Positions 8,601-41,497 of a stretch of DNA of 41,497 bases are shown here, in pieces. Position numbers and translations under genes: made by a program. The stretch lies in the IMG/VR virus record IMGVR_UViG_3300015265_000208, positions 1-41,497 of that record. One strand, 5' to 3'. Source of the stretch: a virus. Every line of letters begins with the position of its first letter. Position 1 is the stretch's first letter. A model generated the notes under the pieces. The model worked only from the letters and a program-made list of their open reading frames with translations, did not search any database and was not told the origin of the DNA.

Positions 8601-9155
8601 GGAATAATCACCTGATTCGTCGGTGAATGTACGGGTCGCCTGGCTCACGTCTGCGATGCGTACGTACTGCTGAGCAGTTACGAGCGCGCCGGACTCGACA
8701 GAAAGAACAAGCACGTCGCCGACGTCGGGGAGTGGCGTTTCGACGCGCCCCAGCAATGTGATCGCCTTCGCACCCTTAGGCTGGTTGCCGAACAGGAAAT
8801 ATGGCGACAGCGGCCCGACGGTGACGTAGGACTCAATACGATCCTGCGCGTCGGAGCGGACGTCCGTCACGCTTCCGGTCGTGAACATGGTGACGGCAAT
8901 CCGCGGGTCATCGGGCGGGTCGGTGACGATGACATGCGAACCCAGATAGGTATCCGTGTCCGCGCTGGTCACAGCCATGTAGGCCTTGCGGAGTGAGAGG
9001 CGGCCGTACGCACGGTCCAGGCGGCTGATATCCGGGAACAGGTTATTGAGGATGCCGCTCTCGATGACCTGGCCGGTCATGCGACCACCCCCGTCGTCGG
9101 TGTCGGTTAGGCGCTCAGAGGCGCGCAGCTTGATGTCGGACACCTGGATCGTCAT
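5622..9155 (-). CDS. Large modular beta-repeat tail protein
   Basis: 1177 residues, mostly predicted beta. A signature G-T-[V/I]-[D/N]-Y-x-[S/T/A]-G recurs: GTVDYEAG (about residue 328), GTVNYASG (417), GTVDYTTG (627) and GTIDYQTG (748), with a weaker copy in MDTGTVTMSG near the C-terminus. Each copy is followed by a hydrophobic strand, so the protein looks like a chain of related modules of about 90-120 residues. It starts by ATGA overlap with the small gene before it. It lies between tape measure and hub genes and is probably a tip or side-fibre component. I cannot name a family. Confidence 0.6.
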   Translation of the reverse strand: MTIQVSDIKLRASERLTDTDDGGGRMTGQVIESGILNNLFPDISRLDRAYGRLSLRKAYMAVTSADTDTYLGSHVIVTDPPDDPRIAVTMFTTGSVTDVRSDAQDRIESYVTVGPLSPYFLFGNQPKGAKAITLLGRVETPLPDVGDVLVLSVESGALVTAQQYVRIADVSQATRTFTDESGDYSRKVVTLTLTGALRQTYLGAEATRLSNIVPPTRVRLTTVADASTYFGVSRLASAAVQNALEIVVDSITAQLVPATTRETAVASASPGLALSYIAAGVSQALNSGGAPRYQWRSVLPGSVSASVSAGSATDVGGSLVVGGTAVGTVDYEAGRFDGTTLFGGTYVPAAAVSGAAHTVAVSVTLANQGTVYVLTLPTRPAVGTLSVSFRYLGKWYTLRDTAGNGSMVGSSDAEGGGTVNYASGDVTLTLGAVPDVGSRIVFSWGDPTSYQQHAGDLTVENPTVTFQLNGFPIKAGSLALSWMSSGTLRHASASADGTITGDASGVVVYLNGMVIMRPAGAAFPDTNSKIDATYIQTDGQQGNVTAAYASGSISFALPPEALPLKPGMVSGSVAGFTGNDPATLYFKDDGAGNIVTAYELAPKTEGLKLSDIGSPGLQPIIAVNAGTVDYTTGAVVIQPGSIAKRQFDIKSLYKGDLVLGEWAVTTGLSSFVPAPIVQYRSQRNSAGEVSSEESATFPGVKIILTRTVVDPIQAGSVWFTWGGKTYIDRQGKMFRDLDPTTGAAIEAGTIDYQTGTVSLTNYGTSSGGSVSLKSLVTRFGDMPVSYAAFRTPGSPLRPATFSLQAVRTDTGAVISATSNANGDITGSFVGGTVENDFGFAEVKFGYYVPAAGNENEPWYDPANVVGTTVWKPILVDPTTIRFNCVVQTTLPLNADVLGIDPVRLPLTGRVPIFRDGDVIVIHERKAVTWPASVSAGQVLSLPGAPFGQFDLLDSSGQEVQPQFYAIDMDTGTVTMSGSLAGLAQPLSATVTLEDMVLVSSVDLSGRLALAAPLTRNYSTNALVSSALLFGDLQAKNPIFFSQGTWQNAWADALSGSGTTAQYNRTLYPLQLINADATTERWALIFTGTAGGNIVGETLGVIGTFAIGQDAAPVNPLTGKPYFTLKKDGWGTGWGVNNVLRFNTIGPNAPIWMARTVLPGAQATLEDSFRLQLRGDAD

Positions 9156-9556
9156 GCAGTCACCGTTTCGAGTCGGATGGTGGGGATGTATTGAAGGGAG
9201 TCGCGTACCGACGCATCGGGCGTAACGCGGTGCTCGACCGGCTCAGCCTCGACGGCCGAGTCCTCCACCCGGAAGCGGACGGTGAAGGCGCGCCCGTCAG
9301 GCAACGTCAGATTGCGGTACGTGGCCGCTTCGGTCGCCATCGATCGAAGGGCCTCGACCGTCGCATAGTCGATCCAGGCGAAGTCGGTACCGCCCTCGAG
9401 CGTGATCGGTCGGCTGGCTTGCAAAAGTCCGATCTGAACAATTTTCGCGCCCGTAAGGCTGACCTTGGTGGAGGCACCGACCGGAAGCCATTTGTGTTCA
9501 TCGGACCAGAGAAGATCCGGTGGAAGGGAAAGCGCACCGAGTGTGATCTTGTCCAT
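9152..9556 (-). CDS. Tail protein following the tape measure
   Basis: 134 residues beginning MDKITLGALSLPPDLLWSDE. It has the feel of a small beta-barrel tail component (TGAKIVQIGLLQASRPITLE; TLPDGRAFTVRFRVEDSAV). It starts 3 nt after the tape-measure stop and overlaps the next gene by ATGA. In many siphophages the gene after the tape measure encodes the distal tail protein; that is a positional guess only. Confidence 0.6.
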   Translation of the reverse strand: MDKITLGALSLPPDLLWSDEHKWLPVGASTKVSLTGAKIVQIGLLQASRPITLEGGTDFAWIDYATVEALRSMATEAATYRNLTLPDGRAFTVRFRVEDSAVEAEPVEHRVTPDASVRDSLQYIPTIRLETVTA

Positions 9557-9559
9557 GGA

Positions 9560-12500
9560 TTACCTGTTGGCCTTGGCGCGGCTGATACCCAACTTCCTGA
9601 CCACCAATGGGGCCAGCAAGTTGGCGACACGCTGGAGATCCATCGCGCTCATCGCCACCGGTTCACCGCCGGATTGCGCGTTAGTCAGGTTAAGGTCGAT
9701 CGCGAGGCGGTCGGGCGTGACGCCGTCACCGCTGATTCGGGGCGAGGACTTGGCTTCCGTGGACCGTTGCTGTTCACGGGCCGCGTTGGCATCGGCGACC
9801 GCCTGTTCGCGGTCCTGAGCGGCCGTCAGCGCCTCCTGCTCTTTCCTCTCAGCCGCTTCCTTGGCCGCCCGCTGGTTATCTTCCAGCGTCTTTTCCGCCT
9901 GGGCTTCAGCGCGAAGCTGATCGTCGGTTAAATATTTGTACTGACCGCGAAGCCGCTCGACGCGCATCGACATGTCGTCGAACTGCGCGTTGGCCTTCTC
10001 CAGCAGCCCCATACGTTCCTTGAAGTCGTTCAGCTGGTCGGTCGCCTGCGCCATAACGCTGTTCCACTGGTTTCGCCACACTTCTGGCGTCGCCGCGAAC
10101 CGGTTAAGCGCCGCAAGATCCTTGATGAGCTGATCGGATAGCCCACCAAGCGAGTAAGAGAGTGCTTCCGTTTCCTTCGCGTGTTTCTTTGTCGCTTCGG
10201 CCGATTCGTCGGCGGCTTTGGAGTAGTGAACCTCACTATCCGCCGCGTCGTCACTCGACTCAGCGACACGATCTGTGGCATCGGCTGCTCGGTGAGACGC
10301 GGCAGCGGTATCGTCCAACGCGCCGCGCGCGTGTCCTGCTCCGCGAGCCACGCGGTCACCGGCATCCAACCCGGCGTCACCCATTTGGTTCAGACCGTCC
10401 GTCACGTTCAGCACGGCTGCTTGTGTATTCAACGCTGCGCGGACCGTCGTTTGCTCCCACGGATCGGAGTTAGCCACCGCGTCCAATTGTGCGCGCGACA
10501 TCGCCACGAACGCCGCCCTGACGTCGTCGACGCTGGCTTCTCCCTGTCGAGAGACCTGGACGATGGCAGAGAAGGCTGCGCGGGCGCTGGCGGCCGCATC
10601 GTCGAGCGCGGCCTTCGACTGAATGCCGAGGGCGGCAAAGGAATCGTTAAGCGGGTTAATAGCGGTCTGAAGCTGCCGAAGCCGGTTTTGCACGGCGGCG
10701 GCGGCGCGTTCCGTGGCCTGGAAGCCGACGCGCCCTTGATCGCCTGCGGCGAAGAGCGCATCACCGATGCTCTTGGCCTCGTCCACGGTCGTCGCGTTGG
10801 CAAGGGCCTTGGAGAATGCCGCCTCGATCGTCGATGCACTCGCGGCGGCATTCTCCGCGACCGTGGCGAAGGCAGCGACGTTCTGCCGGGAAGCATCCGT
10901 GCTCGCCAGGCCCCAGCGCTCGGCGGCCACACCAAGCCGCCCCAGCGCTACCTCGAGGACGCTCTGCGTTACCGCTGCCGCGTCGGTGGCGCTGACCTGG
11001 TAGGCATTGAACGCCGCCGTGGCGGCGGACTGGAAGCGCAGCAGATCGGTGGAGCTCAGCTCGTTCAGTGTCGACTTCAGCCCGAGGCGGACGGCGAGGT
11101 CCGCACGCTGTGACTGGTCGGCGGCATTCGCCAGCGCCAAGGCGAGATCACCCACCTGCGTCGTACTGGCCTGCTGGAAGCCAGCGAACAACTCCTGAAT
11201 CCGAGTTCCCGCTGTGGTTGCGTCGGAGCCGATGCCGGTCAGTGAAGCGCGGAGTTCTTCGGCACCCACACTGAGGTGATCCTTCAGTGCGTCCGCAGCG
11301 ATTTGGGCTCCTTGGGCGAGAGCTTCCAGGCCATCGCGACTCGCTTGGTATGACGCCTTTGTCTGTCCCAGCTCCTCCGACACGTCGCGGCCGATCGCCT
11401 GAAGACGGACTTGTTCGGCCATTTTCGCGCGCAGGTACTCCTGGGAGCCCTTCAGCCTTACCTCATACGACGCGCGCTCCTCGTCACTGAGGGCCGCGAC
11501 CTGTTTCGAGGTCAGTACCTGTGTATCGGCGTACTGGATGTATTGCTGCTGCACGGCGCGGTACGAATCGACCTGCCGTTCCATCTCGTCGCGAACCCGC
11601 TTCTGCACGGCTTCCAGATTCTTCGCCGCAGCGCTGTGCTTGCCTGCCAGCTCGCCGATGTAGTCGCCGGCCTGGACGAGAAGCTCGAACCCGGCCACGG
11701 CGATTGCCACCTGGATGGTAGGCGGGAGGCTCCGAAGAAGCTTCGTCACCAGTGTCGCCTTCGAAGCGACCCCTTGAATGGCACCCTGCGAGCGAACAGC
11801 CCCTGCTGCCAGCTCGGCGAACTTGGCCGCACCGAGGCCGAGTTCCGCAACGATGGCGCCTATCTTGAACGCGGTATATGCCTTCGCGACCGTAGCGATA
11901 GCCGCGGCATGGTCGAATAGGAACATCGTGCCGGTCTTGACGGCAGTCGCCACGCGAACGATCGCATCCGAGATACCCTGGGCGTACGTCGCCAGGCGCC
12001 CGTCGGACGCCATCTGCCTTACTTGGTCGTTGAGCGCCTTCAGCTGGTCACGGAAAAAGTCCAGAACACCGCTCTTCGCGATCTGGTCTTCGAACTGCTG
12101 GATATTGTCCTTCGCCACGGTGAACTGACCGCCGGCAGAGGCGACCTGGGCGGCAGCCGCACCCAAGGCATCCTTGCCCATCTGCGCGACGAACTTTTGC
12201 AACACGTCGACGCCCAGCTTGCCGGCGGAACCAAGCTTCTGAATTTCACCGGCCGTCTTTCCAGTCACCTCGCCGAGGATCTGATACACCGGCACTCCGG
12301 CCTCAACGAGTTGCATGAGCTCCTCGCCCTGCAGCTTGCCCTTGGCGAACGCCTGACCCAAAGCCAGCGTGATGCGCTCCAGGCGCTCACTCTCACCGCC
12401 AAGCTTGGCGTTCTGGTCAACAACCGCGCGCAGTGCCCCGGTGGTGGGATCTACGCCGAAATTCTTGAGGGTGATGAAAGCCTTCATGACGTCCTGCAAC

Positions 12501-20412: not shown

Positions 20413-22445
20413 GTTCGCCTCGCGAATTGGCTTCCGCCACGCCGCGGCGCCGCAGGCGTCTGCGCGCGACGCATCACAGCCGGCGCAGGAGCGTCAGGAG
20501 CCTCAGCACCCTCCGATCGCTCTGCAGCATCTTTCTGCACCGTCGGCGTCGGTGCGGGCGCGGGCGATGCCATGGGCTCGATGGCAGGCGGCACCGACCA
20601 CAGATCCGGCGTGCCGGGCTCCAGCTTTGCCTCGAGCACCGACCAGTCAGCGTCGCGCATGACGTGCAGCCGCACCTTGGGGCTGAGCGCCGCAGCATAG
20701 GCGTAGACGAGCGTATCAAGCACTTCGTTGCGCTTGCCCTTTGCCAGCACCCACCGCTTTGCGACCAGGTCGAGGCGCTCGGCGGTGAGCATCTGGTAGA
20801 ACTCGGGATCGTGGTCGGCCGGAAAATGGAACCGCCGCCTTTCTTCATCTGCCAGTTCGCCATCGTTGATCAACCGCTGCATGAGGGTCGTCTTGATGGT
20901 GTGCTGGCCGACGTTCCATCGCGCGATACCGCGACGATCGGCGCCGCCCTTGCGGTTGGCATCCTCTTTCTTCGGCCGCGCCATGGCGGGCGCATCCGGC
21001 GTGTTCATACCCTTGATCGCCATGATGTTCCGGGCTTGGCGTGGACGCACCCAGCGGTAAACGTCATTCGTCCAGTTGCCGCTGTCGATGCACACCGCCG
21101 CAGGGCGGAGTGGGGTTCCGAACGCGTTGACGAACGTGGCCTTGTCCAGAAACTCATCGACTACCGCCCAGTCCTCATTGCGCGTGGGATCGCCCGGAAG
21201 CTCGACATAATCGATCGCCCAACACTGCTCGTTGCGCCCCCAACCCCAGACGCCAATGGCGAAGCGGTTGGCCTGCACATCGATGCCGACGGTGATCAGC
21301 ATGCAGCCCGCCGGAATGGTGCGACGTTGCCACTTGCCGGCGCGGTCCTTCACGTCTTTGGCTTCGACTTTCTGAGCGACGCCTTCGTAGCTGCGCCCGA
21401 GAATGGTGTTCGTGAACACCACTTCCTTCTCGATGTCGCCCTGCGCCTCGGTGCGCATGGCGGCGATCTCCTTCCAGGTGTATCCGAGACCCACCGGCGA
21501 ATACCCTGCCCAGATGGCGTAGCTCTTTGCGAGCCGTTCGGGGTACCGGTGAACCCACCATGCGCCCGGCTCTTCCTCGGATACCGCCTCGACCAACATC
21601 GCCGTCTTGTGCTCTTCGCCGTAGAGGTCGCCGCAGGCAGGGCAGACGAAGAGGCCATCATCCGTCAGGTTGTCGATATCGAGGGCATGACGGGTACCGC
21701 AGTACGGGCACGGCACGCGGTACTCGGCCTGACTGCCACGCTCGTACTCATCGTCGATCGCGCTAGAGTCTTTCACGCTGGGCGAGCTGACCTTGAATAT
21801 CTTCTTGCGGCGCGTGTAGGACGACGTGCGGCGCTCGGCCTGAACCTGAGCGCTACCCTGCTTGTCGAGGTCGCGCGGGTATTTGTCGAGCTCGTCCAGC
21901 ACCAGGTAGCGCACTGGCATCGAGGCCAGCGAACTCGCGCTGTTCGCGCCGCTCAGCACCAGAAGACCACCGGGAAATTTCTTGGTGAGCGCGGTGTTGC
22001 CGCTGTCCCGAGATCGCGATGGGCCAAACCGCCGTTGCAGGCAGGGCATAAGCTCGATCATCGGCTTCAGGCGCTGCTCGCTGAAGCGCCGCGCGACATC
22101 GACCGTGGGAAGCACGTACATCATCGGGCCGGGCACGTGGTCGGCGACATACCCGATCAGGTTGATCCCGACCTCGGTACCGCCGACCTGCGTCGACTTC
22201 AGCAGCGTGACCTCGGTTACCGGCGAGTCAACCGACAGATCCTCCATGATCGCCCGGAGGAACGGCGTACGTGAGGTCCGCCAGTCGCCTGCCTCGGCCG
22301 CCGACTCCGTGGGCAGCTGCCGGTAGGTGTCCGACCACTGCGTCAGCGTCAACGAGTCGGGCGCGGTCCACCCTGACTGCCACGCCTCCAGCACCACCTC
22401 GGCGCCGGAGGCCAGCTCGATGTCGCCATGCCAGTCCAGACTCAC
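20409..22445 (-). CDS. Terminase large subunit, lambda gpA family
   Basis: 678 residues. The ATPase has a Walker A-like segment (VTLLKSTQVGGTEVGINLIG, about residues 78-97) and Walker B LVLDELDKYP. A four-Cys zinc ribbon follows (CPYCGTRH ... CPACGDLYG). The nuclease half has IDVQANRFAIGVWGWG and AVCIDSGNWTNDVYRW with the acidic residues expected to hold metal. It cuts concatemers and drives DNA into the prohead; the gpA family is usually linked to cos-type ends. The start is GTG at 22,445 by GTGA overlap with the small subunit gene. The C-terminus is Ala/Pro-rich. Confidence 0.95.
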   Translation of the reverse strand: MSLDWHGDIELASGAEVVLEAWQSGWTAPDSLTLTQWSDTYRQLPTESAAEAGDWRTSRTPFLRAIMEDLSVDSPVTEVTLLKSTQVGGTEVGINLIGYVADHVPGPMMYVLPTVDVARRFSEQRLKPMIELMPCLQRRFGPSRSRDSGNTALTKKFPGGLLVLSGANSASSLASMPVRYLVLDELDKYPRDLDKQGSAQVQAERRTSSYTRRKKIFKVSSPSVKDSSAIDDEYERGSQAEYRVPCPYCGTRHALDIDNLTDDGLFVCPACGDLYGEEHKTAMLVEAVSEEEPGAWWVHRYPERLAKSYAIWAGYSPVGLGYTWKEIAAMRTEAQGDIEKEVVFTNTILGRSYEGVAQKVEAKDVKDRAGKWQRRTIPAGCMLITVGIDVQANRFAIGVWGWGRNEQCWAIDYVELPGDPTRNEDWAVVDEFLDKATFVNAFGTPLRPAAVCIDSGNWTNDVYRWVRPRQARNIMAIKGMNTPDAPAMARPKKEDANRKGGADRRGIARWNVGQHTIKTTLMQRLINDGELADEERRRFHFPADHDPEFYQMLTAERLDLVAKRWVLAKGKRNEVLDTLVYAYAAALSPKVRLHVMRDADWSVLEAKLEPGTPDLWSVPPAIEPMASPAPAPTPTVQKDAAERSEGAEAPDAPAPAVMRRAQTPAAPRRGGSQFARRT

Positions 22446-23017
22446 GCGGCCTCCGCAACGGCGCCGTCGTCATCCAGCGGCGCCTTCGCGAGCTTCTTGA
22501 TGACCGCCTGCAATTCGCTGTCGACGATCCGCTCGCACTCGCGCGCGTCGGTGGTCGTCGCCAGTTGGCCCGCTATGCGAGGAGCAACGTTGCGCAACGC
22601 TTCCATCGCACTCCGCGCAAGCCCAAAGATCGCGCGCTCCACGGCATCCCTGCGGATCAGTTCGCCCGCCGTCTCAGCCTGCTCCAATTCGGCCGTGCGC
22701 GCCTTGGCGACCTTCTCCCTTCGCGCCGCCTCGTTGTAACTCATCGGCGCCGCGACAGCGCCTGATAACGCGGCAGCGCCCTCGTCGACGCGCGGAGCGT
22801 CAGCGGGCGGCGCAGCCTGGTTCTTCGCCGCCGTGCGATCGCCACCCCGACCAGGATCGCGCGTGGCATCGATCACCATCTTCGACTGCGCGACCATGAC
22901 CAGCCCGGCGCTGTCTTTCACCAGACGATGTTGGCGGTCAAGCTTGCTGACGTAGGAGTCGCTGACGCCAAGATGCCGGGCAAATTCCGCCTTCGTCATG
23001 AGGTGCTGGTCGTTCAT
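22442..23017 (-). CDS. Terminase small subunit (gpNu1-like)
   Basis: 191 residues. An N-terminal helix-turn-helix (MTKAEFARHLGVSDSYVSKL) should bind the packaging site; a linker rich in Ala and Pro follows, and the C-terminal half (YNEAARREKVAKARTAELEQ; LIRRDAVERAIFGLARSAME) resembles the part of gpNu1-type subunits that contacts the large subunit. ATG at 23,017 has GGAGAGG and overlaps the stop of the gene before it (ATGA). The 9-bp repeats at 23,205-23,448 lie just upstream and could be its binding site. Confidence 0.8.
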   Translation of the reverse strand: MNDQHLMTKAEFARHLGVSDSYVSKLDRQHRLVKDSAGLVMVAQSKMVIDATRDPGRGGDRTAAKNQAAPPADAPRVDEGAAALSGAVAAPMSYNEAARREKVAKARTAELEQAETAGELIRRDAVERAIFGLARSAMEALRNVAPRIAGQLATTTDARECERIVDSELQAVIKKLAKAPLDDDGAVAEAA

Positions 23018-23454
23018 GCCGCCTCTCCGAACCGAAACCGGGTAAGCCGAACCCGACCGAACCAAAGCCAAACCGCTGAATCTAGAGACAAACTGCGCGC
23101 CGGGAACCCGCAATGGCCTGATGTGGGGGAGGACCCGCTCGAACCTGAATGAATTGTTAAGGTATCGTGAGAATTGTTAAGGTTGCCCCACCAGCGACGA
23201 GTCTGGCCCAACCGGCCCAACCACCCGCGACGTAGGTTGGGCCGCTCAAACCGTTGTGCCGCAATCTCTGTCCCAACCGGCCTAACCTGCCTAACCTGTT
23301 TACGCATACATAGGTTGCTGGTGTCGGTGTCTCTCATGTGTACGCACGCGAGAAAGGTTGGGACGGTTGGGACAGCCGTTGGCTCCCAACGCGTAGGAGG
23401 TTGGGCCATAGGTTGGGCATAGGTTGGGCCGGTTGGGCCGGTTGGGCCATTCAT
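23014..23454 (-). CDS. Hypothetical 146-residue protein encoded across the repeat array
   Basis: The frame starts by ATGA overlap with the VapE-type gene and ends by ATGA overlap with the small terminase gene, so it fits the operon exactly. Its sequence mirrors the DNA repeats: GPTGPTGPTYAQPMAQPP, then TAVPTVPTF and QVRQVRPV. No domain is visible, and the C-terminus (SAVWLWFGRVRLTRFRFGEA) is aromatic and basic. It may be a real protein or only a frame kept open for translational coupling across a cis-acting DNA site. I cannot tell which. Confidence 0.45.
   Translation of the reverse strand: MNGPTGPTGPTYAQPMAQPPTRWEPTAVPTVPTFLACVHMRDTDTSNLCMRKQVRQVRPVGTEIAAQRFERPNLRRGWLGRLGQTRRWWGNLNNSHDTLTIHSGSSGSSPTSGHCGFPARSLSLDSAVWLWFGRVRLTRFRFGEAA
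23151..23183. repeat. Direct repeat of 13 bp beside the 9-bp array
   Basis: GAATTGTTAAGGT occurs at 23,151-23,163 and again at 23,171-23,183, 20 bp apart (two helical turns). These are the most AT-rich bases in the area and flank the GC-rich 9-bp repeats, as a melting region or extra protein site would do at an origin or packaging site. Confidence 0.7.
23205..23448. repeat. Array of 9-bp repeats GGTTGGG(C/A)C in two orientations
   Basis: On the plus strand the unit occurs at 23,235, 23,356, 23,365, 23,399, 23,411 (last base A), 23,422, 23,431 and 23,440. In reverse orientation it is at 23,205 and 23,214, with diverged reverse copies at about 23,271, 23,279 and 23,288. Several are in perfect tandem with no spacer. 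The array lies between the replication genes and the small terminase gene. It resembles the iterons of phage P4-type origins; a terminase recognition (cosB-like) site is the other good option. It is not CRISPR: units are too short and there are no uniform spacers. Confidence 0.85.
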
Positions 23455-26571: not shown

Positions 26572-27153
26572 TCACTTCCTCCCGCCGTTCTTATCCGGGA
26601 GCGCTGCTGTGAGCTGCGCCTGGAGGCTTGCCATCGCTGCCTGCAGATCCGCGAGCTCCGTGAGCGCAGGCTTGAGATAAGGCTGGTCGCGCTCGTCGAT
26701 CACGCCATCAGCCACGATGGGCGCCATGCGCCCGAGGAAGTCGCTGAATGCATGCGTGGCATCTGACAGGCTTTCCAGCGCTTCGCGAGGGCTGCGTGCC
26801 TTGGCGGCCAGCAGGCCGTGGCGACCGGACAACAGGCTCAGCGCCTCGTCGCGGAACGGCGGCTGCAATGCCGCCACCCAGGACTCTTCGAGGTCGCACG
26901 GGAAGGTCTTCACTTCGCCCTTGATGTAGCGATCGACCGTCTGGCGATTGGCCTTCTGCGCGGCGCTGATCTGATTGATGTCACCGAGCAGCGGCTTCAA
27001 CGGGACACGGCGATGCTCCTCGGCCGTGTTGTCCAGATAGTGATCGGCGACCCGGTCCGCGAAGCCCACGACGCCGTCGCGGGTGTCGCGCACGGCGCGC
27101 GCCGTCAGCTCCATGAGGGCGGCGGAACGGGACGGCTGAGGACTGGGCTTCAT
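26572..27153 (-). CDS. CII-like phage regulatory protein
   Basis: 193 residues. The middle has a DNA-binding region (QISAAQKANRQTVDRYIKGE) and the rest is helical (SPREALESLSDATHAFSDFL; PALTELADLQAAMASLQAQL), as in the CII/CP76 family of regulators found after cro in many prophages. It is the first minus-strand gene left of the immunity region, but about 1 kb of plus-strand genes separates it from cro. A weak GAGAA precedes the ATG. Whether it favours lysogeny cannot be seen from sequence. Confidence 0.5.
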   Translation of the reverse strand: MKPSPQPSRSAALMELTARAVRDTRDGVVGFADRVADHYLDNTAEEHRRVPLKPLLGDINQISAAQKANRQTVDRYIKGEVKTFPCDLEESWVAALQPPFRDEALSLLSGRHGLLAAKARSPREALESLSDATHAFSDFLGRMAPIVADGVIDERDQPYLKPALTELADLQAAMASLQAQLTAALPDKNGGRK

Positions 27154-27299
27154 GCGAAGGTTCTCGTAGAGGGACAGAATTGCGCCATAGAGACGACGGT
27201 GAGATTGCGGGGATGAGCCAGAGCCAAGGAACGACAGCCAAAATAGGCCGCGCGGTAGACTTCAATCGCGGCAATGGCGCCGCGAGCCGGATGCAAGAG

Positions 27300-27806
27300 A
27301 TGGATGTCGTGATGACGTTGGTAACCGGCGTAGCCGTGCTTGCCTTCAGCGGGCTGGGATTTCTCTGGTGGAACGATCCCGCCGGTTATCGGCGCGTTGC
27401 CAACAAGGTGTTGACTGCTCTCTTCCTCGCATGGGTCGGAATGCTGCTCTATGACCAAGGGTTCAACCACGGTGTCATGCAGCAATATTTGCGAGATTCC
27501 GACACGGCGGAGAAATACACGCAACAAACCTACGTAACTGTTCGAGATGCGATCGACACCGTCTCCAAGGATTCCGAATTGAGCCCCGCGCAACTCGGAA
27601 AGCTCTACAAGGCCGCACCGACTGCCGCGCCGAAGATCACGAACATCAAATTCGGATCCGGAGTGCCCGACTGGCTTGTAGTCCTGTTCCTCATTCTCGC
27701 GGCCCAGCAGGTGATCTTGATTTACATCGAGCCAATGCTGAGCCGCAACGCCAAGCTGGAAGCCAATAGCAATGGAAACGAGCAGCGAAACGACGAGGGT
27801 CGATAA
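27300..27806 (+). CDS. Three-helix membrane protein, antisense to the cro operon
   Basis: About 168 residues with three hydrophobic segments: MTLVTGVAVLAFSGLGFLWW at the start, KVLTALFLAWVGMLLYDQGF at about 33-52 and WLVVLFLILAAQQVILIYIE near residue 125. The loop between the second and third is polar and probably extracytoplasmic or cytoplasmic as one domain of some 70 residues. ATG at 27,300 places the first helix at the N-terminus; starts at 27,213 and 27,291 are also open. It overlaps the next gene by 35 nt. It sits antisense between cro and the CII-like gene, as lysogenic-conversion genes (morons) often do. Function unknown. Confidence 0.6.
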   Translation: MDVVMTLVTGVAVLAFSGLGFLWWNDPAGYRRVANKVLTALFLAWVGMLLYDQGFNHGVMQQYLRDSDTAEKYTQQTYVTVRDAIDTVSKDSELSPAQLGKLYKAAPTAAPKITNIKFGSGVPDWLVVLFLILAAQQVILIYIEPMLSRNAKLEANSNGNEQRNDEGR

Positions 27807-28134
27807 CTTCGGCGGCACATATCGCAAGGAAAGCATCTCAGCGCCTCCCGCAAAAATGTGCTTCGTCACCTGGTTCGCCGAGAGCGAGTTCGCCCGGTTT
27901 CGGGAACTGTTCCCGGTGCGATACCCCGCCACATACCAGGCGTATATACGCTGCACGGAACTGGTGATCGAACTCGACAAAGCGGCGGGCATCGAAGTGA
28001 CGAAAGTGGAAATCCACGCAGAAGGTTTCGTCGCGTGGTGCCGCGCCCTGGGCCGAGATGTCGATGGCCGAGCCCTGCTCGACTACACGGATCGCCTTGG
28101 CGTTGCGCAGCGGTGCCGTCGCGATGAGGGTTGA
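27772..28134 (+). CDS. Hypothetical 120-residue protein, second gene of the antisense pair
   Basis: Begins METSSETTRVDNFGGTYRKE and continues as a soluble alpha/beta protein (MCFVTWFAESEFARFRELFP; TELVIELDKAAGIEVTKVEI). It overlaps the membrane-protein gene before it and ends 10 nt from the convergent cro stop. The pair is probably co-transcribed. I recognise no domain; joint function with the membrane protein is a guess from gene order. Confidence 0.55.
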   Translation: METSSETTRVDNFGGTYRKESISAPPAKMCFVTWFAESEFARFRELFPVRYPATYQAYIRCTELVIELDKAAGIEVTKVEIHAEGFVAWCRALGRDVDGRALLDYTDRLGVAQRCRRDEG

Positions 28135-28144
28135 GAGAGTCATG

Positions 28145-28411
28145 TCAGGCACCAGCACCCTGCGCCAGGAGGGCGCCCAACACCTCCGGAAAGGCAACCG
28201 GGTCAAATCGGTGACAGGGCACCTTCCCTCCAGTGGCTCGCGAAATCCGCACCACCCACCCATCGGGGGCACCACGAGCACGCCAGTTACAGAGGCGCGT
28301 CACCTCAATTCCGAGCAGGTCGGCGAGGTTCGAAACACCCCCGCAGACCTCTATCGCTTCCGCGACAGCGGCCTTATTAAGGGTTCTATGGTCAGGAATT
28401 CTGTCCGTCAT
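28145..28411 (-). CDS. Cro-like repressor (YdaS-type helix-turn-helix)
   Basis: 88 residues with a helix-turn-helix at about 15-40 (AEAIEVCGGVSNLADLLGIE, then VTRLCNWRARGAP), the pattern of Cro/YdaS proteins. It is divergent from the cI gene with 87 bp between the starts, the classic immunity switch. Codons 2-8 overlap one of the operator-like dyads (28,390-28,406), so binding there could block its own transcription. It should be the first gene of the leftward lytic operon. Confidence 0.8.
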   Translation of the reverse strand: MTDRIPDHRTLNKAAVAEAIEVCGGVSNLADLLGIEVTRLCNWRARGAPDGWVVRISRATGGKVPCHRFDPVAFPEVLGALLAQGAGA

Positions 28412-28482
28412 GGCGACACTTTCACAGAACGTGAGCCGGAGTGCAACAGTTTTTCTGACCGTCTTGAGTTAGAAAAACGTGA
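28390..28482. promoter_or_regulatory. OR-like operator cluster between cro and cI
   Basis: Dyads of the form TCA[G/C]-N5-[G/C]TGA or close to it have cores at 28,392-28,404 (TCAGGAATTCTGT), 28,422-28,434 (TCACAGAACGTGA) and 28,446-28,458 (ACAGTTTTTCTGA), plus a half-site ending CGTGA at 28,470-28,482. The centres of the last three are 24 bp apart, as in lambda OR. The element at 28,444-28,460 matches the reverse of one in the right cluster at 14 of 17 positions. Core promoter boxes for cro and cI could not be placed with confidence. Confidence 0.7.
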
Positions 28483-28498
28483 ACTACCATCCCGTCTT

Positions 28499-29143
28499 AT
28501 GGACAAGAAAACTGTCGGGGCGCGTCTCGCGCATCTCCGGAACTCCTTCGGGCTCTCTCAAAAAGAGTTTGCGGAGCGCCTGAACCTCAAGGGACGGGGG
28601 CGTGTGGGCAATTACGAATCCGGCGACAACTACCCGCCCTTCGACTTGGTCGAGGACATCGGGGAGCTGTTTGGCGTTGATGCGTTCGCCCTGCTGACGA
28701 GGAAGGACGGACCGGACATCGCACAGGAGGACGGAAACCGTCGCTTGCCCGGCCACCTATCGATCGCGGTGCTACGCGGCTTTAACAAAGTACCGGGTCC
28801 GCCTGCCGCGATCTTCCCAGAGGACGTCCTACGCCGAAGGATGCCCGGGGCCGACCTGGACACATTGAGGTGGGTGATCAATCCGTCCGACGCGATGAGC
28901 CCTAGGTTCGCCGAGGGGGCGACGACATTCGTGGACCCGCGCGCCAATAGCCTCGACAAAATCGTGAACGGCCAGGTCTACGCTATACACGCCTTTGGCT
29001 CTGCGGATATCCGCCGCATTTTCATCCTCGGACATAACGAGTACCGGCTGACCGGCGACAAGGAGACCGAGAGGCGCCACGATCTGACGGGTCCCGATTT
29101 CAAGAAGCTTGAGATCTTTGGACGAGTCATAGACGCCATCTAA
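28499..29143 (+). CDS. CI-like repressor with degenerate S24 domain
   Basis: 214 residues. The N-terminal helix-turn-helix (LRNSFGLSQKEFAERLNLKG, about residues 13-32) binds operators. The C-terminal part aligns with LexA/CI S24 peptidases: NPSDAMSPRFAEGATTF stands where G-D-S-M-x-P-x-[I/F] is expected, giving Ala for the catalytic Ser, and ADIRRIFILG gives Arg where the catalytic Lys of VKRL is expected. It should still dimerise but probably cannot cut itself. ATG at 28,499 starts the helix-turn-helix domain; the long upstream frame covers the operators. No strong ribosome site is visible. The MASE1 gene follows after 47 nt. Confidence 0.85.
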   Translation: MDKKTVGARLAHLRNSFGLSQKEFAERLNLKGRGRVGNYESGDNYPPFDLVEDIGELFGVDAFALLTRKDGPDIAQEDGNRRLPGHLSIAVLRGFNKVPGPPAAIFPEDVLRRRMPGADLDTLRWVINPSDAMSPRFAEGATTFVDPRANSLDKIVNGQVYAIHAFGSADIRRIFILGHNEYRLTGDKETERRHDLTGPDFKKLEIFGRVIDAI

Positions 29144-29190
29144 CGGGTGGTGCTACGGTCCGGCCGGGGAATCATCGTCAAGACCAATTC

Positions 29191-30825
29191 ATGACTAGCC
29201 GTGCAGTGGATGCTTGGGGCGCAATCAGGGCGCTAACAGCGGGAAAGCCGAGCGTAATCGCAAATATCGCCATTGCTGCAGCATACGCGGTCGCTTTTGC
29301 GGCGCTCCGCGAGGCCTCGAACGACCAGTGGTATCTGCCCGCCGGACTGCGCTTCGCCGCGGCTCTAGCAACTCCCATCAGGCTCTGGCCTGCTCTGTAC
29401 CTGGGCGACATGGCAGGACTCGCCATAGCTCGTTACCCAGTAATCGACCGTCACGGGTGGGCTTGGTACTTGGGGATGCTTCTCCCCGCGTGGCCTCCGG
29501 TAGCCGCTGTCATTTATCAACTCCGCGCCCGGACCAAGCTGCCTCGAATTCAACGTCCGCTGGACGCGGCGGCCCTTGCCGTCGGCGTCGTGCTTTCCGC
29601 CGAAGGCGCAAGCTTGGCGAGCAAAATCTCGTCCGCGTTGCTCACCCCCGGCAGTGACGGCATCAGGCTTGGAGATCTCATCGTGTACTCGATGGGTGAC
29701 ATACAGGGGATTTTGGTTGGTGGCTTTTTGGTCGCTCTCACGTCCAATGGCTGGCTCGCGAGGGAGCGGGCCAAGATATTCCGAGCTGAGGCCCTGTGCG
29801 CCATCACCGTAACCGGTGGCCTTGCCGGTGCGGTTGCAACGGCGCATTTGACGCAAGCGGCGAGCCTTGATGGCGCGCGGCTGCTCCTGTTTGTTCCAGC
29901 TGTTGCCCTCTCACTTCGGCACGGATGGCGAGGCGCGTGCGTGGGCGCGATCGGTGGCGACTTGGCTCTCCTCTGGACGATACCGCACCAAGATAAGGGA
30001 ATGAGCGACGCCGCCGCACTGACGATGCAGGAGGTTTTCACGTTTCTGTCCCTCGCCCTATTCGTCCTCGGCGCGAGAGGGTCCGCGCCGGCGGTTCCCT
30101 CAGAGCAAGTCGCAGAAGGGGTCTCGAAGCGCGAGGCTCGGGGAGAGCATAGGGCGCGCTTCAACTCGATCGAAGCCGCACTACGGGAGAAGGCACTGCG
30201 CGCCGAAGCGATGCAGGCGAACTCGCGCGGGAGCATCGCCCCGGTCGTCGCCATCTTGCGCAAGAGCGGCCATTCGGAGGCCGCGATGGACTTGATCGGG
30301 GCTACCCATCTCGAATCCACTCAGTTCCGGCACACGGTCATAGACGGCATATACCCCCTAACCGTTGAGCGTGACGGGCTGTACGCCGCGCTGCATTCTG
30401 ACGGCTTTCTTGAACGCTTCGGTACCTCGAAGTGCCGTCTCGATCTCATCGGAAGCGCTCATGGGATTTCGCTCGGCACTCTATTGTCCGCTTATCGCAT
30501 GCTCGGCGACGCCGTTGACTATCTGCTCACTTCCGACCCTTCGCATATCGATATCTCGGTGCGCTGCTCGGTTAGGCTCGGGCGCAATCACCTGAGCATG
30601 GCCCTTGTTGCGCGCAATCCAGTAGTCACCGAAAGGACGGCTGTCGACACGGCGAGGCTCGCCAGACTTCGCACTCGTGCCTGCGCGTTCGACGGTTCGT
30701 TTCACAACCGCCCGCACCGACTCCGCATCATCATGGTCGACACTGAGTCGGAGATCTCCCGCCACCGCGGGGCCGATACCGGCTATAGCCTTACATGCGT
30801 GCTTGAGCGGTCCGACCACGACTGA
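29191..30825 (+). CDS. MASE1-domain membrane protein with kinase-like C-terminus, in the rex position
   Basis: 544 residues. About residues 20-295 hold eight hydrophobic segments with MASE1 hallmarks (LPAGLRFAAALATPIRLWPA, YLGDMAG, SMGDIQGILVGGFLVAL). A polar helical linker follows, then a domain resembling a UhpB-type histidine kinase (TLLSAYRMLGDAVDYLL, then DISVRCSVRLGRNHLSMAL), but without a clear phospho-acceptor His box or the Gly-rich ATP-lid motifs. It lies 47 nt after cI on the same strand, so it should be made in the lysogen. In lambda this is where rexA/rexB, the exclusion genes, stand. A role in superinfection exclusion or altering host signalling is inference. Confidence 0.7.
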   Translation: MTSRAVDAWGAIRALTAGKPSVIANIAIAAAYAVAFAALREASNDQWYLPAGLRFAAALATPIRLWPALYLGDMAGLAIARYPVIDRHGWAWYLGMLLPAWPPVAAVIYQLRARTKLPRIQRPLDAAALAVGVVLSAEGASLASKISSALLTPGSDGIRLGDLIVYSMGDIQGILVGGFLVALTSNGWLARERAKIFRAEALCAITVTGGLAGAVATAHLTQAASLDGARLLLFVPAVALSLRHGWRGACVGAIGGDLALLWTIPHQDKGMSDAAALTMQEVFTFLSLALFVLGARGSAPAVPSEQVAEGVSKREARGEHRARFNSIEAALREKALRAEAMQANSRGSIAPVVAILRKSGHSEAAMDLIGATHLESTQFRHTVIDGIYPLTVERDGLYAALHSDGFLERFGTSKCRLDLIGSAHGISLGTLLSAYRMLGDAVDYLLTSDPSHIDISVRCSVRLGRNHLSMALVARNPVVTERTAVDTARLARLRTRACAFDGSFHNRPHRLRIIMVDTESEISRHRGADTGYSLTCVLERSDHD

Positions 30826-30832
30826 GCAGAAA

Positions 30833-30864
30833 CGGCAAGGACTCGAGGAGCCGAGCCCTTGCCG
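30833..30864. terminator. Bidirectional hairpin between convergent genes
   Basis: CGGCAAGG at 30,833-30,840 pairs with CCTTGCCG at 30,857-30,864; after one mismatch CTCG pairs with CGAG, with a 6-nt loop. It lies between the stop of the MASE1 gene and the stop of the exported-protein gene. On the minus strand it is followed by TTTCTG, a weak U tract; on the plus strand by CGCGCG. Confidence 0.7.
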
Positions 30865-30873
30865 CGCGCGTAA

Positions 30874-31299
30874 CTACTTGACGAACACCTGCCAAGACAC
30901 GCTTCCGTCAGCATTCGTGACGACCCCAACCGCCACCGACGCATCGTCGAAGACCAAGCTTGCAAATGTCGGTGCGAAGGCGACCTGCTGCACTATATCC
31001 CCGCCCACAGGCAGCGCCAGAACGGACCCGTCTACAACCGTGAACGCAGCCCTCGGTAAGCCGGACGCGTCGGCCAGCTCCACGTAGCGAACCCCATTCC
31101 GGCTGAAGACGAAGGCCTGCCAGCCTGGGACCCTGCTGTAGTTCTCGGTGCCGGGGCTGACCTTGCCCAGGTCGGTGGCTACTGCATGACTCCGAATCCC
31201 ATGGTCATCCGAAGCGCAGCAGACGGGAGCATCCGCCTTTGCTGCGACCGCTCCACCTAGCAGCACCACCCCAATCACCCCCATCGCGACTTGACGCAT
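30874..31299 (-). CDS. Exported protein of unknown function (moron)
   Basis: 141 residues with a signal peptide (MRQVAMGVIGVVLLGGAVAA, cleavage probably after AKA) and a mature part of about 115 residues, beta-rich, with a Cys pair right after the signal (PVCCASDD). AGGAGG stands 6 nt before the ATG at 31,299, the best ribosome site in the area. It is monocistronic, convergent with the MASE1 gene, with its own palindrome at 31,314-31,330 and a terminator at its end. This layout is typical of lysogenic-conversion genes expressed from the prophage. No family recognised. Confidence 0.65.
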   Translation of the reverse strand: MRQVAMGVIGVVLLGGAVAAKADAPVCCASDDHGIRSHAVATDLGKVSPGTENYSRVPGWQAFVFSRNGVRYVELADASGLPRAAFTVVDGSVLALPVGGDIVQQVAFAPTFASLVFDDASVAVGVVTNADGSVSWQVFVK

Positions 31300-31313
31300 T
31301 TCGAGCCTCCTGG

Positions 31314-31330
31314 CGTTCATTTTATGAACG
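31314..31330. promoter_or_regulatory. Perfect palindrome before the exported-protein gene
   Basis: CGTTCAT and ATGAACG around TTT form a perfect 7-bp inverted repeat 14 bp before the start codon and right before its AGGAGG. The half-site differs from the TCA[G/C] dyads of the immunity operators, so a different regulator is likely. On the minus strand CATAAAAT within it could serve as a -10 element. Confidence 0.6.
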
Positions 31331-31344
31331 TTAGATAAACGGAA

Positions 31345-31374
31345 TTGACAGATGGTCAGAATTTCTGTTGCTAT
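31345..31374 (+). promoter_or_regulatory. Rightward PL-like promoter
   Basis: TTGACA at 31,345-31,350 is a perfect -35 box. A -10-like TGCTAT lies 18 bp downstream at 31,369-31,374. The first operator-like dyad lies between the boxes and the second over the expected start of transcription, so a bound repressor would block it. It should drive the right operon through to the integrase. Confidence 0.65.
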
Positions 31375-31414
31375 GTTGGTCAGATTTTCTGACCATGGAT
31401 TCACGTTTTGTGAG
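31354..31414. promoter_or_regulatory. OL-like operator cluster at the rightward promoter
   Basis: Three dyads: GGTCAGAATTTCTGTTG (31,354-31,370), GGTCAGATTTTCTGACC (31,378-31,394) and TTCACGTTTTGTGAG (31,400-31,414). Core centres are 24 and 21 bp apart. The same two sub-types, TCAG...CTGA and TCAC...GTGA, occur in the cro/cI cluster. The arrangement over a -35/-10 pair mirrors lambda OL. Confidence 0.72.
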
Positions 31415-31453
31415 CAGCCGGTCGGCCTTCGCAAAACGCCATCCAAGAATGCC

Positions 31454-31774
31454 ATGTCGGCAGGGGAGTTCGGTGCCATGCTCGAACGCGAAATGAAACA
31501 CATGCCAGGTCGGTTCCGGCGCTGCCGTTGCAGCAAAGAGCCGCGCCACGTCCAGTCCACGGGCCGTAGCAGCCGCGAGCCGGTCATCACGCTCGCCGAG
31601 GCACGCACGCAGCGTGATTCGCAGCGTCACCGCCTTGAATGCGCTTGCGGCGCCGTCACCGCCCGCCACGCAACGCTCGACCAGGCAGAAGCTCAGTGGG
31701 GCAGCGACTACGCTCAGCTGGCGTTGCCGGCCCGCACCACGACGCGGCGTGCTCGCAAGCAGAGGGCTTCCTGA
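31454..31774 (+). CDS. Small Cys-containing protein, first gene of right operon
   Basis: About 106 residues, starting MSAGEFGAMLEREMKHMPGR. It has CRCSKEPRHV and LECACGAVTARHATLDQAEA, which could hold a metal. The stop overlaps the next start (TGATG), supporting the frame. The start is uncertain: an upstream in-frame ATG at 31,352 lies within the operators, before the expected transcript start, so the ATG at 31,454 is preferred, with only a weak AAGA before it. Confidence 0.5.
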   Translation: MSAGEFGAMLEREMKHMPGRFRRCRCSKEPRHVQSTGRSSREPVITLAEARTQRDSQRHRLECACGAVTARHATLDQAEAQWGSDYAQLALPARTTTRRARKQRAS

Positions 31775-39949: not shown

Positions 39950-41497
39950 ATGATGCGAACCGCCGCCTACGCCAGATACAGCTCCGACGCACAGCGGGAA
40001 GCCAGCCTCGAGGATCAGCTTCGCAATTGCCGCGCCTTCTGCGCGCGCATGGGATGGCCCGATCCGGTCGTGTACACCGACGCCGCCGTCAGCGGGTCGC
40101 GCCTGGACCGCGAGGGCTACCAGCGTCTCCTCGTCGAAGCGCACCGTTTCAACGTGCTGCTGGTCGACGACCTTTCCCGGTTCGGCCGTGACAGCGCCGA
40201 GCTGACCATGACCGTTCGACGGCTCAAGTTCGCCGGCGTCCGCCTGATCGGCGTCAGCGATGGCGTCGACACCGAGCGGAAGTCCCACAAGGCCGACGTG
40301 GGACTGCGCAGCCTGATGTCCGAGATGTACCTCGACGACCTCGCCGACAAGGTGCACCGGGGCCTCACCGGACGCGCGCTGTCGGGCGCGAGCGCGGGCG
40401 GTCTGCCCTACGGCTACCGGATCACCACCGTGGGCCAGCGCGCGATCGACGACGCGCAGGCCGATATCGTCCGCAGGATCTTCGCCGAGTACATCGCCGG
40501 GTCCAGCCCGCGCGAGATCGTGTCGGCGCTCAACCGCGACCGCGTGCCTTCCTCGCGCGGCGGCGACTGGTACGTGAGCGCCGTGTACCCGGACAGGAAG
40601 CGAGGCATCGGCATCCTCGCGAACGCCATCTACGTTGGCCGCCAGATCTGGAACCGCAGCCACTTCGTGAAGCATCCGGATACCGGCCGGCGCCTGCGAC
40701 AGGATCGGCCGCAGTCCGAGTGGATTGTCACCGAGCATCCGGAGCTGTCCATCATCGACGAGGCGACGTGGGATGCGGCGCATTCGCGCGCGCGAAGGTC
40801 CACGAACGGCAGCTACGCCGGCAGCACGAAGCCGGCGCGGCCAGGCCGCCCGACCCGCTACCTGCTCAGCGGCATCCTTCGGTGCGGCGACTGCGGCGGC
40901 CCCATGGTCATCGTGGACCGCTACCGCTACGGCTGCTCAGTGGCAAAGGACCGCGGCGCAACGGCATGCCCGAGCACGGTGAAGGTCGCGCGCGTGCCGG
41001 CCGAGCGCGCGCTGGTCGCCGGGGTGCAGCGCGAGCTGCTCACCGAGACGGCATTCCAGCGGTTTACGGCCGCCGTCACCGCCGAGCTGAAGCGCGCGGC
41101 GCCGGACACCGAAGGAGCGAAGCGCAGGCTCGCCGAGGCCGAGAAGGTGCACGCGAACGTGATGATGGCGATCCGTGCGGGCATCGTGACGCCGAGCACG
41201 CGAGCGGAACTGGTTCGAGCTGAGGGAGAGGTGGAAGCGGCCCGCGCAGAACTGGCGGCCGTGAAGTCGTTCCAGCCGGCGCAGATCCTGCCGCGGGCTC
41301 GGGAGACGTGGCGTCGGCTGGTTGCCGAGCTGACGACGGTGACGGACACCGTGCGCGCACGCGATGCGCTGCGCGAGTTGATCGGCGAATCCGTCCGCGT
41401 CACAAAAGAAAACGGCGCGATCTTTGGAGAGATCGCGCCGTTTCAGATAAACCTGGTAGCGGGGGTAGGATTCGAACCTACGACCTTCGGGTTATGA
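39950..41497 (+). CDS. Large serine recombinase (phage integrase)
   Basis: 515 residues. The resolvase domain begins AAYARYSSDAQREASLEDQL with the catalytic Ser near residue 11, and has VDDLSRFGRD and the long linking helix. The recombinase domain follows (GLPYGYRITTVGQRAIDDAQ), then the zinc ribbon (LRCGDCGGPMVIVD; GCSVAKDRGATACP) and a coiled coil (about residues 385-430). It integrates and, with a partner, excises the phage. The last residues, GVGFEPTTFGL, are encoded by the tRNA-fMet gene read backwards, and the TGA stop is formed by anticodon bases. A terminator hairpin also lies within its last 40 codons. The C-terminus in the free phage is therefore probably different. Confidence 0.93.
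   Translation: MMRTAAYARYSSDAQREASLEDQLRNCRAFCARMGWPDPVVYTDAAVSGSRLDREGYQRLLVEAHRFNVLLVDDLSRFGRDSAELTMTVRRLKFAGVRLIGVSDGVDTERKSHKADVGLRSLMSEMYLDDLADKVHRGLTGRALSGASAGGLPYGYRITTVGQRAIDDAQADIVRRIFAEYIAGSSPREIVSALNRDRVPSSRGGDWYVSAVYPDRKRGIGILANAIYVGRQIWNRSHFVKHPDTGRRLRQDRPQSEWIVTEHPELSIIDEATWDAAHSRARRSTNGSYAGSTKPARPGRPTRYLLSGILRCGDCGGPMVIVDRYRYGCSVAKDRGATACPSTVKVARVPAERALVAGVQRELLTETAFQRFTAAVTAELKRAAPDTEGAKRRLAEAEKVHANVMMAIRAGIVTPSTRAELVRAEGEVEAARAELAAVKSFQPAQILPRARETWRRLVAELTTVTDTVRARDALRELIGESVRVTKENGAIFGEIAPFQINLVAGVGFEPTTFGL
41410..41443 (-). terminator. tRNA-fMet terminator inside the integrase frame
   Basis: A perfect 14-bp stem (AACGGCGCGATCT plus one A:T pair, loop TTGGAG on the plus strand) begins 10 nt after the tRNA 3' end. 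In the tRNA direction it is followed by TTTTCTTTTG, a good U tract. It should end tRNA transcription, and may also meet integrase transcripts. The phage apparently supplies both the tRNA 3' end and its terminator. Confidence 0.85.
41454..41497 (-). tRNA. Initiator tRNA-fMet (CAT), 3' half, attachment site
   Basis: Read on the minus strand: anticodon CAT followed by AA, the anticodon-stem strand CCCGA (three C that pair with GGG, special to initiator tRNAs), variable loop AGGTC, T stem/loop GTAGG-TTCGAAT-CCTAC, acceptor strand ending in ACCA. The 5' half lies beyond the window. Position at the integrase end marks it as the probable attB/attR site. Confidence 0.88.

Follow-up and report, generated by a model that had tools for sequence, protein, structure and literature searches.

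Organization of the immunity region

The window analyzed here, which is the entire virus record IMGVR_UViG_3300015265_000208 of IMG/VR (41,497 bases), contains an immunity region in which a cro-like gene and a cI repressor gene diverge; the interval separating them holds a first cluster of related dyads, one of which overlaps the cro start. Rightward from cI lie a gene for a MASE1 membrane protein, a convergent gene for a small secreted protein, a second dyad cluster, and an early operon ending in a serine integrase. Leftward, the cro-like gene is followed by CII-like, primase-like, and VirE-like genes, the last being our own naming for a gene with homologues in the related contigs L009 and L013. 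The cI gene (28499–29143, plus strand) encodes 214 amino acids comprising a helix-turn-helix (HTH) and an S24-like C-terminal domain (Pfam HTH_3/HTH_31 and a weak Peptidase_S24 match at 0.011; PHROG repressor, 5.6e-21). The cro-like gene (28145–28411, minus strand) encodes an 88-residue protein with a YdaS-type HTH (Pfam YdaS_toxin, 1.1e-9; PF15943, 38.4 bits against a cut-off of 30), which also matches PHROG repressor/regulator families and is 52% identical to the Cro of L009. Seven related 17-bp dyads were found, of which four lie at cro/cI (the OR cluster) and the other three at the early promoter on the far side (the OL cluster), with approximately 3.0 kb between the clusters. This arrangement very probably represents an immunity region on the plan of phage lambda, in which CI acts on both operator clusters.

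Two clusters of one operator dyad

The dyads, designated predicted operator sites A–G, share a consensus of about GGTCA[G/C]-AAATT-[C/G]TGACC. In the OR cluster, site A (28390–28406, GGTCAGGAATTCTGTCC) overlaps the first cro codons and is followed by site B (28420–28436, TTTCACAGAACGTGAGC), site C (28444–28460, CAACAGTTTTTCTGACC), and the imperfect site D (28468–28484, GTTAGAAAAACGTGAAC), which lies just 5′ of cI. The OL cluster comprises site E (31354–31370, GGTCAGAATTTCTGTTG), site F (31378–31394, GGTCAGATTTTCTGACC), and site G (31399–31415, ATTCACGTTTTGTGAGC). The start-to-start steps are 30, 24, and 24 bp in OR and 24 and 21 bp in OL. A sequence-only reading of this DNA had described six such dyads and an additional half-site at 28470. 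All of them were found where it had placed them, and 14 of the 17 bases are indeed identical between the element at 28444 (site C) and the reverse of that at 31354 (site E). The count of six is nevertheless too low, as the half-site is probably a fourth operator of the first cluster, since the equivalent position of L009 (4422) is occupied by a full dyad. The first cluster lies between cro and cI as described, except for its first site, which falls inside the opening codons of cro (ATG at 28411). The short pattern TCA[GC]N5[GC]TGA, by which that reading had defined the dyads, is matched exactly at 28422, 31380, and 31401, but not at the other sites it named.

Taken alone, this short pattern is near chance level, with six exact matches in the window, three of which lie outside the clusters; the longer 17-bp matrix discriminates. 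A matrix built from the four cro/cI sites only ranked the distant sites F, E, and G first, second, and third among 41,417 positions. In simulated sequence with the dinucleotide composition of the window, chance would yield 0.000, 0.017, and 0.117 matches at the scores reached by the three OL sites. In the reverse direction, a matrix from the three OL sites placed sites A, C, and B at ranks 1, 2, and 4 of the held-out positions, and the remaining site D at rank 17. In an unsupervised test, the best palindrome common to the two intergenic regions was determined with nothing picked beforehand, a procedure free of site-choice bias. The shared 17-bp palindrome scored 13.5, compared with maxima of 11.5 among 1,018 other stretches and 12.5 among 300 shuffles. 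Lambda and phi80, used as positive controls, both passed this test against other stretches.

The top matrix match outside the clusters is GTTAAGGTATCGTGAGA at 23156–23172 (score 12.9, with about 0.8 matches expected by chance at 12.7), which sits approximately 43 bp upstream of the minus-strand gene 22442–23113. A weaker match, GGACAAGAAAACTGTCG at 28501–28517 (score 11.0), overlaps the cI start and could be either an extra operator or a chance occurrence.

Matched operator change among related phages

With CI as the single query, neither viral nor genome contigs yielded any relatives, and just one phage match, a distant one, was obtained; relatives were recovered instead through the neighbors of CI, namely the CII-like and MASE1 genes. 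In one of these, L009 (the same contig as L004), CI is 43% identical to that of the window. When the window matrix was applied blind to the 14,685 bases of L009, the top five matches were at 4422, 4353, 7331, 4377, and 7265, all of which fall inside the cro/cI and distal intergenic regions of that contig; the first of them is the full dyad in the place of site D, just before cI. The contigs L010/L011, L012, and L013 have the same gene order as the window, and each carries its own dyad in both intergenic regions: GTCACG-N3-CGTGAC in L010/L011, TAGC-N5-GCTA in L013, and TAAG-N4-CTTA in L012. In the unsupervised test, the shared palindrome exceeds every null stretch and every shuffle in the window, L009, L010, L011, and L013 (17 bp) as well as in L012 (18 bp). 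The two-cluster design is thus repeated in four related phage groups whose repressors differ, two of them having a different DNA-binding domain.

The window, L009, and L010 have one CI HTH type and the TCAC-N5-GTGA core in common, while L013 and L012 have other HTH types. A dyad that tracks the CI HTH type in this way is what one would expect of CI as the reader of both clusters, and among the comparisons made here this correspondence argues most strongly for that reading. L013 is otherwise close to the window (terminase, terL, 78%; VirE-like, 89%; DHH, 83%), yet its immunity cassette (6850–10500) is divergent and its dyad is swapped at both ends. Since a swapped cassette together with a dyad changed at both ends is what heteroimmunity requires, the window phage and L013 appear from their genomes to be a natural heteroimmune pair. 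The cross-prediction between clusters, the blind transfer to L009, and the corresponding arrangements in L010/L011, L012, and L013 therefore lend strong support to the proposal of the sequence-only reading, namely a single repressor that works on two distant promoters on a lambda-like plan. As the dyad is repeated at both ends, the operator can be read from the genome, which provides a predicted pairing of repressor helix and operator for the window and for four further, divergent phage groups. This set of immunity regions probably derives from phages of Lysobacteraceae.

A cassette of the CI C-terminal domain, MASE1, and a secreted protein

In the CI of the window, the catalytic Ser and Lys of S24 are replaced by Ala132 (A132) and Arg172 (R172), as determined by alignment with phi80 CI, and one or both catalytic residues are gone in every cassette member read. 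Since the catalytic Ser/Lys pair of self-cleaving S24 repressors is missing, induction probably does not proceed through RecA-stimulated self-cleavage of CI.

The MASE1 gene (29191–30825, plus strand) encodes a membrane protein of 544 residues whose C-terminal domain resembles histidine kinases. The MASE1 domain was detected by Pfam at 6.9e-15 (PF05231, 55.4 bits against a cut-off of 29.8) and is found in all nine members. The C-terminal half is predicted to adopt a histidine-kinase fold: the best PDB match of the model (mean predicted local distance difference test score, pLDDT, of 77 from an alignment nine sequences deep) is DesK (3ehj, E of 2.2e-4, probability 1.0), and the top 50 structure matches are histidine kinases or related proteins. 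No conserved His that could accept a phosphate is present in the 305–358 helix of the alignment, no member has a HisKA or HATPase match in Pfam, and a PDB sequence search with the MASE1 profile returned weak coiled-coil-like matches only. The convergent gene (30874–31299, minus strand), called a moron by the sequence-only reading, encodes a secreted or periplasmic beta-rich protein of 141 residues with a signal-like N-terminus, conserved in the cassette members. In its model, residues 51–141 form a small beta fold predicted with confidence (pLDDT about 88–95), for which the PDB search gave no convincing structural relative (best E of 0.36); no Pfam family was matched. PADLOC returned a defense match for neither this protein nor MASE1.

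In viral contigs, a CI lies beside MASE1 in 11 of 11 MASE1 matches, and the scans with the CI C-terminal domain and with the secreted protein returned cassette contigs only. The scans for these three proteins were seeded on conserved peptides and favor close members. A search of genome contigs with the MASE1 alignment found none. The two halves of CI differ markedly in their conservation. Between the window and L006, the identity is 25% for the CI N-terminal half, 46% for the C-terminal half, 43% for MASE1, and 51% for the secreted protein; between L013 and L014, it is 23%, 67%, and 54% for the first three. Across pairs, the correlation of identity with that of MASE1 is 0.93 for the C-terminal half of CI and 0.65 for its N-terminal half. 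These comparisons indicate a conserved cassette, in which the DNA-binding half of CI is swapped between members while its C-terminal half remains linked to MASE1 and the secreted protein. L005, L006/L007, L008, and L015 carry the CI C-terminal/MASE1 cassette with a different CI N-terminal half, along with the secreted-protein gene where the contig reaches it; the L006 cassette adjoins a homologue of tail gene D. The dyads just 5′ of cI differ in both arms among members, reading CCCTC-AGGGG-GAGGG in L006 and CCTAC-GACTT-GTAGG in L005.

The pair of MASE1 and convergent secreted-protein genes also occurs on Xanthomonas plasmids, where it lacks an adjacent cI, as read directly in L031 (3920–5830) and L032 (2929–4830); each of the two queries matched 19 Xanthomonas plasmid records. 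This distribution indicates that the pair is a mobile unit. A role in the control of CI is possible but not needed to explain its position, and the idea of MASE1 as a dedicated partner of CI, which was considered first, was downgraded once the pair had been found without cI on plasmids.

Proposed mechanism and alternative explanations

The sites, their shared specificity, the gene order, its recurrence in relatives, and the matched dyad change at both ends are established at the level of the genomes. On this basis, CI (28499–29143) would bind the 17-bp dyad at the four cro/cI sites and at the three sites that precede the rightward early operon. When bound there in the lysogen, it would silence both the leftward operon of cro, the CII-like gene, and the primase and the rightward operon that runs from the 31478 gene to the integrase, and it would control its own promoter; after induction, these sites would be contested by Cro. 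The spacings of 24 and 24 bp in OR and 24 and 21 bp in OL may allow cooperative pairs of CI dimers. The distance of about 3.0 kb between the clusters would allow an OL–OR loop as in lambda, which is plausible because three lambdoid repressors looped OL–OR in an earlier study (PMC8053113). The cI and MASE1 genes lie on the same strand, 47 bp apart, and are probably co-transcribed in the lysogen, which would, more tentatively, make MASE1 and possibly also the secreted protein lysogen-expressed cargo at the position of rexAB in lambda and of 40A in phi80.

Several points weigh against a lambda-type switch operated by CI. The location of site A within the first cro codons and the 30-bp step between A and B are both unlike lambda, and the sites that trained the matrices were chosen by a reader who had both clusters in view, which is the reason why the unsupervised palindrome test was run. 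A sigma-70 consensus scan found a good −10 element at neither cluster. The TTGACA hexamer that the sequence-only reading had taken as the promoter around 31,380 is present (31344–31349, plus strand) and is a candidate −35 element of pL, but no good −10 was found at 16–18 bp from it, and the promoters therefore remain inferred. Occupation of the clusters by Cro, either on its own or together with CI, is also conceivable. In a stronger form of this last point, the main binder of the dyads would be not CI but Cro or a host regulator; this version draws on the YdaS-type Cro-like gene adjoining the dyads and on the common operators used by Cro and CI in lambda. We consider it improbable, as the operator type tracks the CI HTH type among the relatives, with the same HTH class accompanied by the same TCAC-N5-GTGA core, and as a host regulator would not switch the dyad in the otherwise close L013. 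That the dyads are chance palindromes in AT-rich intergenic DNA, as the stray exact matches to the short pattern might suggest, is contradicted by the cross-prediction, the simulation, the unsupervised test, and the blind matches in L009, leaving this explanation with next to no probability.

With CI binding at both clusters retained as the preferred reading, the alternatives concerning MASE1 can be weighed separately. The pair may be lysogenic-conversion cargo, serving superinfection exclusion, envelope sensing, or defense, and unrelated to the control of CI. Its position matches that of rexAB and 40A, it occurs on plasmids without cI, and exclusion systems typically combine membrane with secreted proteins. 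Although two points speak against it, the missing PADLOC match and an unusually tight association with the CI C-terminal domain that persists through changes of the repressor's DNA-binding type, we regard this as a reasonably likely explanation. Alternatively, MASE1, with or without the secreted protein, might be a sensor acting on the CI C-terminal domain, such that induction follows a membrane or envelope signal and not DNA damage. The loss of the S24 Ser/Lys pair from the CI of the window and of one or both residues from all members read, the fact that on viral contigs MASE1 always adjoins the C-terminal domain of CI, the swapping of the N-terminal half while the remaining parts are kept together, and the predicted kinase fold without a conserved phospho-His are all in line with such a role. 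However, the plasmid pairs point to a job of its own, a single crossover carrying adjacent genes would yield the same MASE1–CI correlation through linkage alone, and no precedent for a MASE1-type sensor acting on CI was found in the literature searched. The sensor role thus appears unlikely. Equally doubtful is its extension to the cassette as a unit of lysogeny control, in which a MASE1 sensor lacking the phospho-His would release or hold a non-cleavable repressor on an envelope signal, while immunity would be changed by swapping the DNA-binding half together with the operators. If true, it would imply prophages whose inducing signal is not DNA damage. The switch itself appears to be of a known kind, and the cassette is the part worth following: an uncharacterized MASE1/secreted pair, common to phages and Xanthomonas plasmids, is placed where lambda keeps its lysogen-expressed genes.

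Comparison with known systems

The lambda operator consensus is TAtCACCGCcaGTGaTA, with a TCAC-N5-GTGA core (PMC10742460). The statement of the sequence-only reading that the operator type is not known from described phages was therefore overstated, as this core is lambda's own. The window and lambda matrices do not find each other's sites, while two of the top three matches of the lambda matrix on L009 are L009 operators. Exact identity of the window operator with that of lambda was rejected, since the core is common but the matrices show no cross-recognition; these results support a distinct specificity of the lambda operator type. In its overall plan, which is the mirror image of lambda's, the window resembles lambda in its divergent early operons, operators between cro and cI, another cluster at the second early promoter, dyads of 17 bp built on the TCAC-N5-GTGA core at 20–24 bp spacing, and lysogen genes (rexAB in lambda) in between. 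The steps in lambda are 24 and 20 bp in OL and 23 and 24 bp in OR, compared with 24 and 21 bp and with 30, 24, and 24 bp in the window, which has four OR sites including one 30-bp step. The window differs further in the AT-rich spacer, the flanks, and the GGTCAG variant of its operators, in a CI without the S24 catalytic residues, in a YdaS-type Cro, in the MASE1/secreted pair in place of rexAB, and in its serine integrase.

Phi80 has a similar order of cro, OR, cI, one more gene (40A), and then OL at pL, and the C-terminal domain of its CI is detectably related to that of the cassette member L006 (24%). In contrast, its operator sequence is different, its CI has intact Ser/Lys, and it has no MASE1. 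OL–OR looping has been demonstrated for the repressors of lambda, HK022, and phiKO2 (PMC8053113). In HK022 and phiKO2, OL and OR flank the repressor gene as in the window, but at a distance of about 0.7 and 0.63 kb, as opposed to about 3.0 kb between the predicted clusters of the window. The predicted fold of the C-terminal half of MASE1 resembles DesK-type histidine kinases; unlike these, the window protein lacks a conserved phospho-accepting His in the helical region, a Pfam kinase match, and an adjacent response regulator.

Neighboring genes

The CII-like gene (26572–27153, minus strand, in the direction of cro) matches the CII-like activator family PHROG 4834 (phrog_4834) at 2e-30 and is 94% identical in L004/L009. 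It lies downstream of cro, with two plus-strand open reading frames (27180–28134) in between. These two frames are antisense to the leftward early transcript and are possible lysogen genes; a homologue of the second is present in L013 (6596–6862, 72%). At the OL cluster, the first gene of the early operon (31478–31774, plus strand) has homologues in L009 (71%) and L013 (78%) that begin at MLERE, and its start was reassigned from 31352 to 31478 by comparison with them. Its product matched no Pfam or PHROG family; by eye, its paired CxC motifs are somewhat like those of restriction-alleviation (Lar) proteins. ARAGORN found no tRNA at the record end (41460–41497), where the integrase reading frame finishes with GVGFEPTTFGL, resembling a translated tRNA T-arm region; this region is a possible attachment site. 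The plasmid homologues of the MASE1/secreted pair come from Xanthomonas only, which suggests, indirectly, that the host of the phage may belong to Lysobacteraceae.

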